A stretch of 35,109 bases of DNA from Candidatus Woesearchaeota archaeon (GTDB taxonomy: Archaea; Nanobdellota; Nanobdellia; Woesearchaeales; GW2011-AR4). The translations under genes were made by a program, and so were the position numbers. A model generated the notes under the pieces. That model ran no database searches, was not told the origin of the DNA, and saw only the letters and a program-made list of their open reading frames with translations. The stretch lies in contig JADHVG010000008.1 in assembly GCA_016784105.1 (NCBI GenBank), forward strand, positions 1 through 35,109, given 5' to 3'. This document shows positions 1 through 35,107 of the stretch, one piece after another. Each line of letters starts with the position of its first letter. Position 1 is the first letter of the stretch.

Positions 1-2449
1 AACTTCTATAGTATTGTCTCAATATTCCTATAGCAGACTTTATATTACAATCCAAGTCATAAGCTGTTTCTCCAGATGCGCATCCAAATTCTTGCAGTCT
101 TTTGCTTCCTGCCTGGAACAAGTCTTGGTGTGCTTTAGGATCTTTGTTTATCTGCATAAGCCCACAACTTCCATAAGCATTACAATTAACGCTTAAAGAC
201 ATTGATGTTCCGCAACTTGAGCCTTGTAATTTACAATGTTCAAGTGAGGATTCCACTCTTGCTATAGATAATAATAATACCGGGTTTTCAAAATTCTGTT
301 GATTTGCTATTTGAATTATTTTGTTCTCCATTTCCGTTGACCCCATAATCGCTCTTCCTCCTGAACTTTCTTGAGTTGCATCATCCAACCCTGGAACCTT
401 GTCTATTCTTACAGCGACCGTTTTTTCAACAGAATAATCATATCTTGCTTTAACTCTGAATGATTTGGTTGTGATTGGTGTGTTGCCAAGAACTTCTGAA
501 GGGTTTGGATTAATGCTGCATGTAAAGAATGTGAATCTTTCAAGATCTTCCTTCTTTTGTATCTTTGATTCTAGGGCCTTTATGTCTAAAGAGTATGCAT
601 TATATTCTTGGTTTTCTTCTTGGAATAATGCATTGCATTCATCTTGACATTGTTCGGATTCTTCTTTGCATGTTTGCTGACAACTTAAATATTCTGTCGA
701 CCCTTCTTTATGTCCTTTGCATACTTTGTTGCATTCATTGAACACAAATTCTTTGCATGATTTTTCCTTACAATCATCTAACTCGTAATTGTTGAATTTT
801 TGATTGCAATCGAGTTGGGGGTTTGCTATGCTTGCACCTTTTGGAGTCAATAATATCAGTTCTTTTAGTGCTGTTATTTTTCCTTCCCATCCTTGCCTGT
901 TTTGTATACTCATCCTAATCCTTGGAAGCGCAAGATAACTATCGCTTACTCCTATCAAAGGGCTTGTTGTTTCTATTCCTATTTCTGCAGGACCATTAGT
1001 GTATATCGCAATAGGACTCTTGTCTTTTATGTCAAATTCTTCAAAGGGGTCTTGGTTTTGTCTGGTCATAGCCCTCAGTCTTTCTCTATCCATAAAATAT
1101 GTTTTTAGTAATGCTAATGTTTCAAAATTGAAGTCTGCATGAGTGGTTATGGTCTTACTTCCGGATTCTAGGATATTTGCCCTAAAGGTACATGCAAAGT
1201 CCTGTTCTTCAAAAGTGAAGACTGAAAATGTTTTGTCAGGATCTATCTTTGTCGCTTCTGTTTTCTTTTCATCTTCCTCAACAAAACATCCTACTTTGAG
1301 ATTTATAGGATCATCAAGTGTTCTTGCACGAACATTGCCCCACACAACTACTGGTTCATCTGTGTAGAACCTCTGTTGTGCAGACTTAACATCTTCAAGA
1401 TAAACTCCTAACGGTTCGTATTGATTCTCTTCTACTTTTCCGGTTATTGCATATTGAATCTGTCCAGAAATCCATTTGCCCCATAAACTTGCATAGTTAG
1501 AAAAAACTTTTTTTGGTGCTGCAAGTGCCGCTTCTCTCTGCTCTGCACTTGTTTGTTCTAAAATTCCCCCTCCAATTATCTGCCATCCGACAAATCCCAG
1601 ATAAAACATCCAGATCAGAATTAATAAGGTGTTCTTGTCTGAACCTTCCCTAATAAAAGATGAAAAATAGATAAGCCATATCGGAAATAATAGTTTGTTG
1701 GATATGACACTCAAAACTTCATTCCCAGCAGCACTTGAAAGAAGGGCAGCACTTGGGAACGCAAAAATGTCCCAAATAACTACAAACAGAAAGAGCCAGT
1801 GTCTTCCATCTATTGCAGTAGATCTATCCAACCCTTTTAGCAAGAACACATAAACTCCCAGAGCAAATATTAAGTGATAAAATATCCAGAAGTTTGTTCT
1901 TGCGAACATCCATATTGTTACTAGTAAGAAAACCAGAAAAAAGTAGTATGATAATTCTTCTTTTGTGTTCGGCTTCCTTATTATGAAATATATTACTAAT
2001 ACCAGTATGAACGGACTCTTCGACAGGATCTGGGTTATAAGGTCAAGGCCTGCATAGTTGAATATGGAATCCCACCTTATTCCGTTTACTCCAGAATAAT
2101 AATCTAATATCCACAGAAGAACTGGGAAGAATATTATCATGATACTTCCTGTTTTTTCGCTGGAAGTTACTGTTCTATAGGCTCCTGCAGCCAGACCCCC
2201 CATCATGCCCGCTCCTGATTTAGCCGCGTTACCTGCTTTTTGTGTTGCTTCGCCCATACCTTGAAATCCTTTCCGCATAGCACCAACAAGTTTCCCAGTA
2301 GAATCTCTGTTTTGCGAGAGAATCTGATTTTCTTTTTTTACATAATCTTGGAAAGAACCTTTAGAACTATCAGATTGATTTTTTATTCTATACGCATCAG
2401 CTTGGCTGATGTTTCCTTTCTTTAATTCTTTCTTCCATCTTGTAGCCAT
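1..2449 (-). CDS. Polytopic membrane protein with extracytoplasmic lysozyme/transglycosylase-like domain (3' end outside window)
   Basis: I translated the minus strand codon by codon from the ATG at 2449 to base 2: 816 codons with no stop, so the gene continues past the left edge. Residues 1-100 are polar and probably cytoplasmic. About seven hydrophobic segments lie between residues 103 and 292. The rest is probably outside the cell. Residues 548-605 hold nine cysteines, including three CX3C pairs (CNKVC, CQQTC, CQDEC). The C-terminal part matches the lysozyme/SLT fold: the catalytic-type glutamate is E733 in ARVESS and the GLMQIN motif is at 763-768. Family knowledge says such domains cut glycan strands between N-acetylated sugars; the substrate here is unknown, since most archaea lack murein. 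It follows the 389-aa surface protein by 56 bp on the same strand, so the two are probably co-transcribed. The architecture is seen directly; a role in cell-wall or partner-cell interaction is inference. Confidence 0.85.
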   Translation of the reverse strand, partial: MATRWKKELKKGNISQADAYRIKNQSDSSKGSFQDYVKKENQILSQNRDSTGKLVGAMRKGFQGMGEATQKAGNAAKSGAGMMGGLAAGAYRTVTSSEKTGSIMIIFFPVLLWILDYYSGVNGIRWDSIFNYAGLDLITQILSKSPFILVLVIYFIIRKPNTKEELSYYFFLVFLLVTIWMFARTNFWIFYHLIFALGVYVFLLKGLDRSTAIDGRHWLFLFVVIWDIFAFPSAALLSSAAGNEVLSVISNKLLFPIWLIYFSSFIREGSDKNTLLILIWMFYLGFVGWQIIGGGILEQTSAEQREAALAAPKKVFSNYASLWGKWISGQIQYAITGKVEENQYEPLGVYLEDVKSAQQRFYTDEPVVVWGNVRARTLDDPINLKVGCFVEEDEKKTEATKIDPDKTFSVFTFEEQDFACTFRANILESGSKTITTHADFNFETLALLKTYFMDRERLRAMTRQNQDPFEEFDIKDKSPIAIYTNGPAEIGIETTSPLIGVSDSYLALPRIRMSIQNRQGWEGKITALKELILLTPKGASIANPQLDCNQKFNNYELDDCKEKSCKEFVFNECNKVCKGHKEGSTEYLSCQQTCKEESEQCQDECNALFQEENQEYNAYSLDIKALESKIQKKEDLERFTFFTCSINPNPSEVLGNTPITTKSFRVKARYDYSVEKTVAVRIDKVPGLDDATQESSGGRAIMGSTEMENKIIQIANQQNFENPVLLLSIARVESSLEHCKLQGSSCGTSMSLSVNCNAYGSCGLMQINKDPKAHQDLFQAGSKRLQEFGCASGETAYDLDCNIKSAIGILRQYYRS

Positions 2450-2505: not shown

Positions 2506-3675
2506 TTATTCTTCAAGCTCAACCGTAAGCTCAACTATGTCTAATCTTGTTCTTGGTCTTATTTCTATGAAGTTGTTGCCTTCTTTGATATAATCTGTTA
2601 TGTCTTTGCTGAATGTGCGTTCATCAACATCTAAAGTTATGAATCTGTCATTTATGTTTATGTCTGCTCTTTTTAGGTCGTTATCTTCCACAAATTCCAT
2701 TTTGAGTATTACGTCTTCAGCTCCACTTTCGATGTCTTCAAGCGTGGTGTCATTGATTTCAAAGAAGTACACATTTGTCTTCACATCTTCTTCTTTGAAA
2801 GTAACTCTTATTTGTTCAACAGAGTAGCTTCCTTTATTTGTCCTTAACACTATGTTGTTCTCTCCTGAGTTAAGCATTCCTAATGGTATTGCTTGTTTGT
2901 ACGCATCTTCGCAAACTGGGACTGCTGAAAATAAGTTCCGGCTATTTAATGTTATATCCAGTGTTCCAACATCTTCCACATTTCCGCAGTAAGGAACAAA
3001 TCTTAAGTTTGCTTCTTCTATGTTAAATAGGTCTGTTGAGGTTAATGTGAACACATTCTTGCTTTCCTGTTTGGTCTTATCGGTTATGTCCCCTATAACT
3101 TTAACATCTTCCAAACTGTACTCGTTGGTTCTCCAGAATTTCATCCCTACTGGTGATACTGAGAAAATTAATTTGTTTTCTTCCCTAAGCAAATTTTTCT
3201 TTAAGGTTATTGGAGCTACGGTTTGGGATTCTAGGTCATTTTCATAGATAATTTCGTTATTTAGTGTTATTGTGAGTGTTCCTTTGTGTTCTTTTGCCTT
3301 GAATGATAAGATCACGTTATCCGTATTGTCTAAATTTTCTATAGCAAATTCTGTTTCTTTTGTTTTTTCATCGAACCATCCTTTTCTTACAATGAATGGG
3401 TTGATATTTTCCAGTTCTTTTGCGTTTGTTGTCTCAAATAGGAGCACGTTAGGAATATCTTTATCTTCTATTTCTTCAACCGTGTCTAGTCTTTCTGGAA
3501 ATTCTCTGAGAAGTACATCCGTTCCATCTCCATCGGAAGATCTATCTACGGTCTTATTTTCCAGTAATGCTTCTCTTTCCGCATCCGGAAGAAAAACTAT
3601 GTATAGAAGGATTAGTGCTGCGATTACCGCTATCAAAACAGCGGCATTTGTGCCTCCTTGGGCTTTTTTCAACAT
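2506..3675 (-). CDS. Membrane-anchored surface protein with pilin-like leader and three similar beta-rich domains
   Basis: The 389-aa product begins MLKKAQGGTNAAV followed by about 16 hydrophobic residues (LIAVIAALILLYIVFL). This resembles an archaeal class III (pilin-type) signal or a simple N-terminal anchor. The rest is hydrophilic and probably outside the cell. It appears to hold three repeats of one fold, at roughly residues 88-195, 205-295 and 298-389. Each is rich in alternating strands and ends in a similar turn (REENKLIF, SGENNIVL, EGNNFIEI), reminiscent of galactose-binding-like or jelly-roll domains. An upstream GGTGAT lies immediately before the ATG, and a TATA-like stretch lies near 3728-3740. 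It precedes the lysozyme-domain membrane protein on the same strand. I recognise no named family; adhesion or an envelope scaffold is a guess. Confidence 0.8.
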   Translation of the reverse strand: MLKKAQGGTNAAVLIAVIAALILLYIVFLPDAEREALLENKTVDRSSDGDGTDVLLREFPERLDTVEEIEDKDIPNVLLFETTNAKELENINPFIVRKGWFDEKTKETEFAIENLDNTDNVILSFKAKEHKGTLTITLNNEIIYENDLESQTVAPITLKKNLLREENKLIFSVSPVGMKFWRTNEYSLEDVKVIGDITDKTKQESKNVFTLTSTDLFNIEEANLRFVPYCGNVEDVGTLDITLNSRNLFSAVPVCEDAYKQAIPLGMLNSGENNIVLRTNKGSYSVEQIRVTFKEEDVKTNVYFFEINDTTLEDIESGAEDVILKMEFVEDNDLKRADININDRFITLDVDERTFSKDITDYIKEGNNFIEIRPRTRLDIVELTVELEE

Positions 3676-14895: not shown

Positions 14896-15891
14896 ATGAA
14901 AAGATATTCATTTTTGATTTTTGGCATTATTTCTTTGCTTGTTATTGCTGGTTGTGAATCAGGAGGTTCTGGAAGTCCAGAAGGTTCTGGTTCCGCTCCC
15001 AAGTCTGCTTTTCTTGGTGGTAGCGACGGGCTAAAGATAGATTTCCTTAAAGGGGAACCTCCAGAAGAAGTTACTGATAAAGGAACTTTTGATTTTCAAA
15101 CTGTTGTTTCTCTAGAAAATAAAGGGGAATATGATCTTAAGCGGGATGAAGTCCGCATAGATTTAATCGGATTTTTGGCTTCAGACTTCGGTGCTAACGA
15201 AGATGAACTAAGAGATAAAAGACCAGAAGATGATCCTAGCCCTAGAAGGCGTGATTCTGAAGGCAATGTTATTGATTCTGTACAAACATTCCTCGCTTTT
15301 CCAAGTGATGAAGGTTTCTTTAATTACGAACGTAGTGTTACCGGAAACACAGAATTTACTTTCCGTGCAAATGTTTGCTATAAGTACCAAACTAAAGCTC
15401 TTTCACAATTATGCGTTCTTAGAGATTTAATAAACCCTAATAATGCTGTTTGTGACCCTACTGGAAGCAAAACTCTGCACAGCTCTGGTAGTCCTGTTAA
15501 GCTAAGTTCATTTAGACAAACAGTAGCTGGAAAGGACAAAATAAGTTTTAGTTTTGATGTTTCTAGTTCAGGTACTGGTGAAGTTTACAAGGAAGGAGAT
15601 AGTACTAGTCCTCCCGCTTCCTGTCCTTCTGACCCAAGAGAGAGAAGGGAAAAGCGGGATAGGGTTTTAGTGACTGTAGAAACTGGCCTTCCAGAATTGA
15701 GATGTGTTGGTCTAAGTGGAGGTTCCTCTGGGTACGTTAATTTGGTAGAAGGTAAGAGAACCGTTACTTGCACTCAAGAACTTGATCCGGGAAGGACTGA
15801 TTTTGAGACTAATGTAGAAATAACGGCTGACTTCAATTATCTTGATAATGAAGAGAAAAAGATATTGGTAAAGCACATAGTTGATTCTTAA
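14896..15891 (+). CDS. Secreted lipoprotein of unknown function
   Basis: The 331-aa product starts with a clear lipoprotein signal: MKRYSF, a hydrophobic core, and the lipobox VIAGC with C20 as the predicted lipidated cysteine. A Gly/Ser/Pro linker follows (residues 21-35, ESGGSGSPEGSGSAP). The remainder is beta-rich with several cysteines (for example VCYKYQTKALSQLC and ELRCVGLSGG). It reads like tandem immunoglobulin-like or CARDB-like surface domains (DFQTVVSLENKGEYDLKRDE). The promoter CTTTAAATAAAA (about 14850-14861) and AAGGTATTACT before the ATG resemble those of pelA. The 3' end overlaps rfcS by 4 bp. Substrate or role unknown. Confidence 0.85.
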   Translation: MKRYSFLIFGIISLLVIAGCESGGSGSPEGSGSAPKSAFLGGSDGLKIDFLKGEPPEEVTDKGTFDFQTVVSLENKGEYDLKRDEVRIDLIGFLASDFGANEDELRDKRPEDDPSPRRRDSEGNVIDSVQTFLAFPSDEGFFNYERSVTGNTEFTFRANVCYKYQTKALSQLCVLRDLINPNNAVCDPTGSKTLHSSGSPVKLSSFRQTVAGKDKISFSFDVSSSGTGEVYKEGDSTSPPASCPSDPRERREKRDRVLVTVETGLPELRCVGLSGGSSGYVNLVEGKRTVTCTQELDPGRTDFETNVEITADFNYLDNEEKKILVKHIVDS

Positions 15892-18772: not shown

Positions 18773-19324
18773 CTACTCGGTTGGAGCACGAATAAGTGCA
18801 ACATCTCTGTAATGAGCTCTTAATTTTCCAAATTCGTTCTGAGCATTATCGCATAAGTAAAGTGCTGCTGAATCACCAAAATTATCTGCTCTGAACTGTT
18901 CAGCTAATGGAAAATCATCTCGTGATGGAACAATAAGTTTTCCTTCTATTCCCCCAGATTTCCATTCTGCAAGTCTCCTATCGCTCAACGCTCCATGAAC
19001 ATGTTTAACAACCGCAAATCCTCCATACTGATCTAATTCTACTGGCTGTGCTGCCTCAAAAAGTTCTCTTAACTCAGCCTGTCGCTGACTATCATCTCCA
19101 AAATAATCCCCTACGACCCCTATTGCTTCATCAATAAAATGATAATGTCGTACCGGATGCTCAAGTCCAGGTGGCACTGATCCAGAAGTTAGAATTGATC
19201 TTACAACAGTATAAAATTTGTTCGCAGCATTATCTCTCTGCCTTTCATCAGTAGATTTTCCTAATATACCATGCCAAGATTTTACATCATTGGCAAACTT
19301 TTGCTCCTTGGATAATTCTGACAT
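18773..19324 (-). CDS. Protein of unknown function (183 aa), unusually GC-rich
   Basis: The soluble 183-aa product (MSELSKEQKFANDVKSWHGI) is rich in Asp, Glu, Arg and Ala, with segments such as HYHFIDEAIGVVGDYFGDDS and GFAVVKHVHGALSDRRLAEW. I recognise no family. In the 60-base lines I counted, G+C runs from about 38% to 47%, clearly above the roughly 30% of the next gene, and the protein has fewer lysines than its neighbours. A TTTATAAAT box about 25 bp before the ATG gives it a normal archaeal promoter. It lies between elements A and B. Recent acquisition is likely but not proven. Confidence 0.7.
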   Translation of the reverse strand: MSELSKEQKFANDVKSWHGILGKSTDERQRDNAANKFYTVVRSILTSGSVPPGLEHPVRHYHFIDEAIGVVGDYFGDDSQRQAELRELFEAAQPVELDQYGGFAVVKHVHGALSDRRLAEWKSGGIEGKLIVPSRDDFPLAEQFRADNFGDSAALYLCDNAQNEFGKLRAHYRDVALIRAPTE

Positions 19325-27955: not shown

Positions 27956-28972
27956 ATGCATTCAAAAAACAATAATCAAAAATTGAGTATAGATGATTCA
28001 AAAGCTAAAAAGATATGGGAAATTATAGAATCGTCTCCAAATCAGGTATTTAATTTAAGAAAAATCTGTCAACTCTATAATTCTAAATACGATAACAAAA
28101 TAGAACCCTTGAGAGCCAGCACAATTATATCTAGGTTGTACAATAGAAGCAAAATTATAAGGACAAAGACACAATTAAAAGATGGGCATCTTTATTCTCT
28201 AAGTAATAAAATAGAATTGGATGCTTTATATAAAAATTATTTGCTGCCTTATGATTTTGAGGATAAAGAAAACATTCTGAAACTTCTAACAAAAAACAGA
28301 TTTGGAAAATTACGTACAGATAATAAGGAATTAAGTGATGATATTAGCTCCTTTGTAGCTTTAAATGTTGGCTTCCTTATGTGTGATGGGCACATAAAAA
28401 ATAATTTATTACAAATTCGTTATTATTTTAATCAAAAATCAGATGCAAAATTATTCAAAACAAATTTTTTATTATTTTTTCCGAAAGAAAGGGTTTCTAT
28501 TAAACCTACTTCTTCTTGTTATACTTTGACAGTTTGTAACAAAAAATTAGCAACATACTTTCATTCTTTGGGTGTTCCGAGAGGTAATAAAGTGTGTCAA
28601 CCATTCACGATTCCGAGTTGGATCTATCATGGTTCAGATCCCATAAAAAGAACTTTTTTATCAGTAATTTATGGGAATGAAGGTTCTAAACCAATCAAAA
28701 ATAAGTGGAGAATTCAATTTGTGTTATCCAAAAACAAAAAATTCGTTCCTGATTTGCTTCTATTTTTGAACCAAATTCGAACTATGCTAAATCATTTTGA
28801 CATAAACACTTCACATATTCAACTAAGAAAACAAAAAAATAGGGAATTTTGTGGGAGATTTTACATAACTGGAAAAGAAAACTTAGTAACATTCTATAAC
28901 AAACTTGAATTTTCATATGCTTCTGAAAAACAAAAAGTGTTAGAATCTTTAATTTTGAAGGGAAAGTCTTAA
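27956..28972 (+). CDS. Free-standing LAGLIDADG homing endonuclease-like protein
   Basis: The 338-aa protein has both LAGLIDADG helices: FVALNVGFLMCDGHI with D144, and KRTFLSVIYGNEGSKP with E242, the acidic residues that bind the catalytic metals. The N-terminal 85 residues (VFNLRKICQLYNSKYDNKIE, then STIISRLYNRSKI) look like a winged-helix DNA-binding domain. It is not inside another reading frame, so it is not an intein, and no rRNA or tRNA exon is visible on either side. TTTTAAAC about 25 bp upstream of the ATG suggests a leaderless transcript. It lies between element C and a GC-rich putative RNA. Confidence 0.87.
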   Translation: MHSKNNNQKLSIDDSKAKKIWEIIESSPNQVFNLRKICQLYNSKYDNKIEPLRASTIISRLYNRSKIIRTKTQLKDGHLYSLSNKIELDALYKNYLLPYDFEDKENILKLLTKNRFGKLRTDNKELSDDISSFVALNVGFLMCDGHIKNNLLQIRYYFNQKSDAKLFKTNFLLFFPKERVSIKPTSSCYTLTVCNKKLATYFHSLGVPRGNKVCQPFTIPSWIYHGSDPIKRTFLSVIYGNEGSKPIKNKWRIQFVLSKNKKFVPDLLLFLNQIRTMLNHFDINTSHIQLRKQKNREFCGRFYITGKENLVTFYNKLEFSYASEKQKVLESLILKGKS

Positions 28973-34432: not shown

Positions 34433-35107
34433 TCAGTTTGAAGCAAGTAACTGTTTAAAGAATTTGGTTACTTTGGTGTTTTTTATCCAAATCCCAAAGT
34501 CGTAATCGGAATGTGTTTCCTTCTTTTCAAGTGGAAGTAATATTGTGTTATCTTGGTCAACAAGACAAATCCTTAATCCCTCCTCTAAAGCCAAAACTTT
34601 AGTTTTTGTGTTTTCTATTCCTTCTTTCGCTCCCCCTAACATGTTTTTTGGTAAGGTTATGTTTTCACTAGACTCTTTTATTAAGAAGTTGATGTGTTTC
34701 TGTGTGTTTTTCCTTCCTTTTAGTATTGCTATTGTGTCTCGTATGTTTTCTGATGATTTTTCGTATGTTTCTTGTAAGGCCCCCACAAGCCCGTTGAATT
34801 CTGGGTTGTTTATTCCTACCAGGTGTTCTTTTGTGTTTTCTTCTATTTTTCCTTTTACTCTTTCTAGTACTTCTTTTGGTGGTACTGCTAGATACTTGAT
34901 AGGTTTTCCTAGTTTCATAACCACAAAACCTTTTTTCTCTAAACTCTCAAGAACATCATAACTTCTGGACCTCGGAACATTAGCAATATCACTAAGTTCG
35001 CCGGCAGTACTGACTCCTCTGGAAAGCAATGCCGTCCAGATTTTAACTTCATATGTATTGAGACCCAACGATTTTATTTTTTTTATTGATTCTAAGTCAA
35101 CTAACAT
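34433..35107 (-). CDS. TrmB-family transcriptional regulator
   Basis: The 224-aa product starts with the TrmB winged-helix domain. LKSLGLNTYEVKIWTALLSR-like sequence (here KSLGLNTYEVKIWTALLSRG) is followed by STAGELSDIANVPRSRSYDVLESLEKKG (split STAGELSDIA, NVPRSRSYDV, LESLEKKG) and FVVMKLGKPIKYLAVPPKEVL. A coiled-coil region follows, then a C-terminal domain (LGGAKEGIENTKTKVLAL, then IWIKNTKVTKFFKQLL). Sugar-responsive TrmB proteins have a longer effector domain; this one is short and its ligand is unknown. The promoter lies beyond the right edge. Confidence 0.88.
   Translation of the reverse strand: MLVDLESIKKIKSLGLNTYEVKIWTALLSRGVSTAGELSDIANVPRSRSYDVLESLEKKGFVVMKLGKPIKYLAVPPKEVLERVKGKIEENTKEHLVGINNPEFNGLVGALQETYEKSSENIRDTIAILKGRKNTQKHINFLIKESSENITLPKNMLGGAKEGIENTKTKVLALEEGLRICLVDQDNTILLPLEKKETHSDYDFGIWIKNTKVTKFFKQLLASN

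Follow-up and report, generated by a model that had tools for sequence, protein, structure and literature searches.

A seven-TM envelope protein of Woesearchaeota with an exchangeable C-terminal enzyme domain predicted to act on bacterial walls

Described transglycosylases and archaeal peptidoglycan hydrolases

Transglycosylase proteins have already been reported for Woesearchaeota. Castelle et al. (2021, PMC8204110) presented murein-transglycosylase proteins of Pacearchaeota and Woesearchaeota (fam00969) and proposed the bacterial wall as their target. GH23 genes were reported in "vampiristic" Woesearchaeota, for which predation on bacteria was proposed (Vigneron et al. 2022, PMC9723730), and the killing of bacteria was reported for other archaeal peptidoglycan hydrolases (PLoS Biol 2025, PMC12352652).

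The protein family analysed here shares with fam00969 the archaeal SLT domain, the lineages and the proposed bacterial-wall target. By the available description of fam00969 it is set apart by its size (about 440-1370 aa, compared to up to 3000 aa), its seven transmembrane (TM) helices and its exchangeable enzyme. Our SLT profile also matched SLT domains in proteins of roughly 1900-2700 aa, which belong to other families of the class. With the GH23 genes of Vigneron et al. our family has the phylum and the enzyme class in common; the accessible text of that study contained no mention of a membrane fusion, an operon or an exchange of modules. The enzymes of PMC12352652 are likewise archaeal, directed against bacterial peptidoglycan and built with shuffled M23 and GH73 catalytic domains. 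Those surveyed in that paper were selected by their cell-wall-binding domain, and the ones studied there are secreted, whereas our family is membrane-fixed and no recognised cell-wall-binding or peptidoglycan-binding Pfam domain was found in the members scanned. In the openly accessible literature we found no earlier description of a fusion to seven TM helices, of this operon or of a swapping of modules.

The family has the fold, the catalytic Glu and the G-x-MQ and AYN motifs in common with GH23 lytic transglycosylases (MltC, MltE, MltF, Slt70) and g-type lysozyme. Unlike in these proteins, the domain is rich in Cys, fused to a seven-TM archaeal protein and encoded in a five-gene operon, and the sequence identity is low (10-18%).

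The window gene and its SLT/GH23 domain

The window, which is the whole stretch of 35,109 nt that was analysed (contig C70), belongs to a genome of 1.19 Mb that is 83% complete. The relatives were Woesearchaeota, in agreement with the predicted archaeal origin. An ORF of 816 aa at 2..2449 on the minus strand encodes a polytopic envelope protein with a C-terminal SLT domain. The ORF is open at the contig start, which interrupts it within this domain. The missing C-terminus was found on contig G000:C10 of the same genome (L003 3-692, plus strand), which overlaps with C70 by about 137 bp with a few mismatches (residues 772-816, 98% identical at the protein level). Since the gene order on C10 agrees with that in relatives, we merged both parts into a protein of 1000 aa, a join that is based on the overlap of about 137 bp and on synteny. 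The continuation on C10 encodes an AYNG motif, an FnIII domain (E=0.0058) and then two lipoproteins.

The seven TM helices of the original prediction were supported by hydropathy, with segments across residues 103-293 (1571..2143, minus strand), and helices were also present in the model of a relative. They follow an N-terminal segment of 102 residues (2144..2449, minus strand) that is predicted to be cytosolic from hydropathy and charge. The loops on the cytosolic side contain 25 Lys and Arg residues versus 2 on the outer side, and all 20 cysteines of the merged protein are located at residue 388 or beyond. Together with the seven TM helices, this places the C-terminal 700 residues outside. 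The window protein is thus predicted to be oriented N-in/C-out with an extracellular enzyme domain, as had been proposed.

Between membrane part and enzyme lies a conserved, beta-rich ectodomain with a helical Cys-rich insert (residues 316-690; 380..1504, minus strand), as judged from the model of the relative L053 (849 aa). This model was calculated with 30 sequences, reached a pLDDT of 83 and comprised membrane helices, two beta-rich ectodomain parts plus the helical Cys-rich insert, and then the SLT domain. The cysteines of the ectodomain may well form disulfides. When the whole relative was searched with Foldseek, all matches to the ectodomain were weak and of a generic beta-sandwich type.

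The SLT/GH23 lytic transglycosylase domain covers residues 705-816 (2..337, minus strand) and is completed on C10 (L003). Translation placed Glu733 within ARVESS (251..253, minus strand) and GLMQIN at residues 763-768 (146..163, minus strand), exactly as predicted, and the merged protein has RAYNG at 856, in the part that comes from C10. Alignment of 17 SLT domains showed these positions to be invariant: the Glu, which is the predicted catalytic acid (17 of 17 rows), G-x-MQ and several Cys. The truncated window protein stayed under the Pfam cut-off for SLT (PF01464, E=0.023, 14.7 bits versus a gathering score of 21.3), which was exceeded by the relatives L008 (24.2 bits), L030 (61.4 bits) and L042 (62.7 bits). 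The window gene was the sole SLT match in the 83%-complete host genome. The domain is short and divergent, and phage records gave no match to it.

A search of PDB sequences with the truncated domain as single sequence yielded chance matches only. With the family profile (A2), MltC was matched with E values of 4.5e-4 and 8.5e-4, goose lysozyme with 0.032 and Slt70 with 0.11. The AF2 model of the SLT domain of a relative had a pLDDT of 92.1, and the 50 Foldseek matches listed for it were solely GH23 transglycosylases and g-type lysozymes, with a top probability of 1.00 and moderate TM-scores (about 0.4-0.5) for the top matches to solved transglycosylases. The structure comparison, the family profile and the conserved motifs all bore out the predicted SLT/lysozyme fold, and the domain would be expected to be catalytically active.

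The conserved operon and the exchange of the C-terminal enzyme

A homologue was present in 69 of 99 relatives, and most of the named relatives are MAGs of Candidatus Woesearchaeota and Nanoarchaeota. Of 19 regions compared, nearly all had the gene order pelota (divergent), a single-pass protein, the seven-TM protein and 2-3 paralogous lipoproteins, followed in most regions by the RFC small subunit and a divergent PRC-barrel gene. Pelota was identified by eye from the sequence, RFC and PRC were confirmed by Pfam. The operon of single-pass protein, seven-TM protein and three lipoproteins is order-wide.

Gene 1 of the operon (2506..3675, minus strand) encodes the single-pass protein of 389 aa with the conserved start KKAQGGxNAAVLVAIIAGLIILYIxFLP; some orthologues had a weak CBM-like match. 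This strikingly conserved N-terminus is reminiscent of class III (pilin-like) signal sequences. Lipoproteins 1 and 2 are encoded on C10 (L003 676-1656 and 1658-2626). The third lipoprotein (14896..15891, plus strand; lipobox IAGC) is displaced in the window from its usual position; its neighbours there, as in relatives, are still the genes for the RFC small subunit and the PRC-barrel protein. A lipobox was found by a simple pattern in 70 of 75 ORFs of the lipoprotein family. Sequence searches revealed no PDB relatives for gene 1 or the lipoproteins, and a homology of the lipoproteins to the ectodomain was tested and not supported.

Some further genes were observed. Two TrmB-family regulators, one in the window (34433-35107, minus strand, extending to the right end of the contig) and one on C10 (L003 2797-3609), have nearly identical N-terminal regions. 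A free-standing ORF at 27956-28972 (plus strand) with a FVALNVGFLMCDGH motif possibly encodes a LAGLIDADG-type protein (PF14528, E=0.0015, under the cut-off). The 183-aa ORF at 18773-19324 (minus strand) had no Pfam match and no relative among the neighbourhoods compared.

The C-terminal region of the seven-TM protein differed between orthologues and contained SLT, GH73, M23, NlpC/P60 or M15 modules or was free of enzymes. SLT modules, of several divergent kinds, were recognised by Pfam in 16 of 30 members. The other families detected by Pfam were GH73 glucosaminidase (3.7e-17, 1e-16, 5e-15 and 2e-8), M23 (7e-17), NlpC/P60 (7e-14 and 5e-5) and M15_4 (1.3e-10). One of the NlpC/P60 members also has an SLT domain, which was detected by the A3 profile only. 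In L131 the NlpC module is located within the ectodomain and not behind it, and L058 has an unclassified lysozyme-like stretch as its C-terminal module. Active-site residues were recognisable by eye for M23 (HxxxD, HLH), M15 (HxxxxxxD, H) and NlpC (C, H). Members free of enzymes carry FnIII, Ig-like or crystallin domains in the same position. The genome NC_groundwater_554 has two copies of the family, L059 and L077, one with SLT and the other with GH73.

A tree of the ectodomains of 58 proteins required at least 17 changes of the module label, compared to a minimum possible number of 7; this was a quick tree with many weak and long branches, in which gain and loss are not separable. No recognised enzyme was present in 24 of the 58 core proteins (for L134 this label was assigned by eye without a Pfam scan), and these proportions are those of a sample chosen by similarity to SLT-bearing members and not those of the order. 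The large number of members free of enzymes suggests that the enzyme is dispensable for a basic role of the complex.

Target and function of the complex

SLT, GH73, M23, NlpC/P60 and M15 enzymes cut different bonds, in the glycan or in the peptide, and their common usual substrate is bacterial peptidoglycan. Among the targets considered in the original prediction, the wall of a bacterial partner is favoured by the exchanged modules, all of which appear to belong to peptidoglycan-hydrolase families, and peptidoglycan is the presumed substrate. Judged from sequence, an exchangeable, membrane-tethered hydrolase directed at bacterial walls would be the best reading. We consider it likely that the window protein belongs to an envelope complex conserved in Woesearchaeota, in which it is the subunit that bears the enzyme, and that its outside SLT domain cleaves bacterial peptidoglycan on contact. 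The products of the operon, a single-pass protein, the seven-TM protein with its presumably disulfide-rich ectodomain and three lipoproteins, would form this complex, and the seven-TM protein would hold the SLT domain outside the archaeal membrane. When the cell touches a bacterium, the domain would cut the MurNAc-GlcNAc bond of the bacterial peptidoglycan. The purpose might be to attach, to feed on a bacterial partner or open it, or to kill a competitor. Points that weigh against this reading are the 24 core proteins with no recognised enzyme, the score of the window domain under the Pfam cut-off, the moderate TM-scores, the incompleteness of the genome and the lack of a recognised peptidoglycan-binding domain.

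Alternatively, the C-terminal domains could act as an adhesin that binds the bacterial wall without cutting it, with enzymes recruited as lectins. An attachment function has been put forward before (Castelle et al. 2021, PMC8204110), and the FnIII, Ig-like or crystallin domains of enzyme-free members and the CBM-like match of gene 1 would fit such a function. The invariant catalytic Glu of the SLT rows and the active-site residues retained in M23, M15 and NlpC members speak against it, because mere binding needs no such conservation, and we regard this alternative as unlikely.

VirB6 is a polytopic membrane protein and VirB1 a lytic transglycosylase. The combination of both features in the window protein is reminiscent of these components (for the role of VirB1 see PMC12102498), and it could be part of a machine for secretion or DNA transfer that locally opens the wall of the recipient. 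A T2SSE-type ATPase is indeed encoded elsewhere in the host genome. However, a secretion or pilus machine, which had been suspected among the adjoining genes, was not found there: the adjoining genes that are conserved encode one single-pass protein and three lipoproteins. Among the recurring families into which the neighbour genes of about 20 genomes were clustered, and to which the annotation applies rather than to every singleton, there was no ATPase, coupling protein or pilin/pilin-motor family and no VirB4-type ATPase or further type IV secretion component. The polytopic part had no VirB-type match in Pfam or PDB. We regard a secretion function as less likely still.

Pseudomurein, also named originally as a target, or the archaeon's own wall is unlikely on sequence grounds, because no murein or pseudomurein ligase was found in the 83%-complete host genome, whose sole Mur-ligase-like gene (a Mur_ligase_M match, rejected as Mur ligase) reads as FolC. 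Trimming of the own envelope glycan, S-layer or a pseudomurein-like wall would suit a core protein that permanently belongs to the envelope and is retained across the order, but it is very improbable, with the enzyme absent in many relatives and orthologues bearing peptidases (M23, NlpC/P60, M15) for peptidoglycan stems.

For the bacterial wall as target, we tentatively suggest a wider role: the standing envelope complex could be a common mount throughout the order, on which lineages swap hydrolases to match their bacterial host or prey, and would then represent an undescribed contact-dependent device for wall opening. The type of module is predicted to track the kind of wall that the bacterial partner has. 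The finding bears on the identity of the partners of Woesearchaeota and supplies a concrete, expressible candidate enzyme. The occurrence of five hydrolase families on one surface protein argues that many Woesearchaeota contact bacteria.
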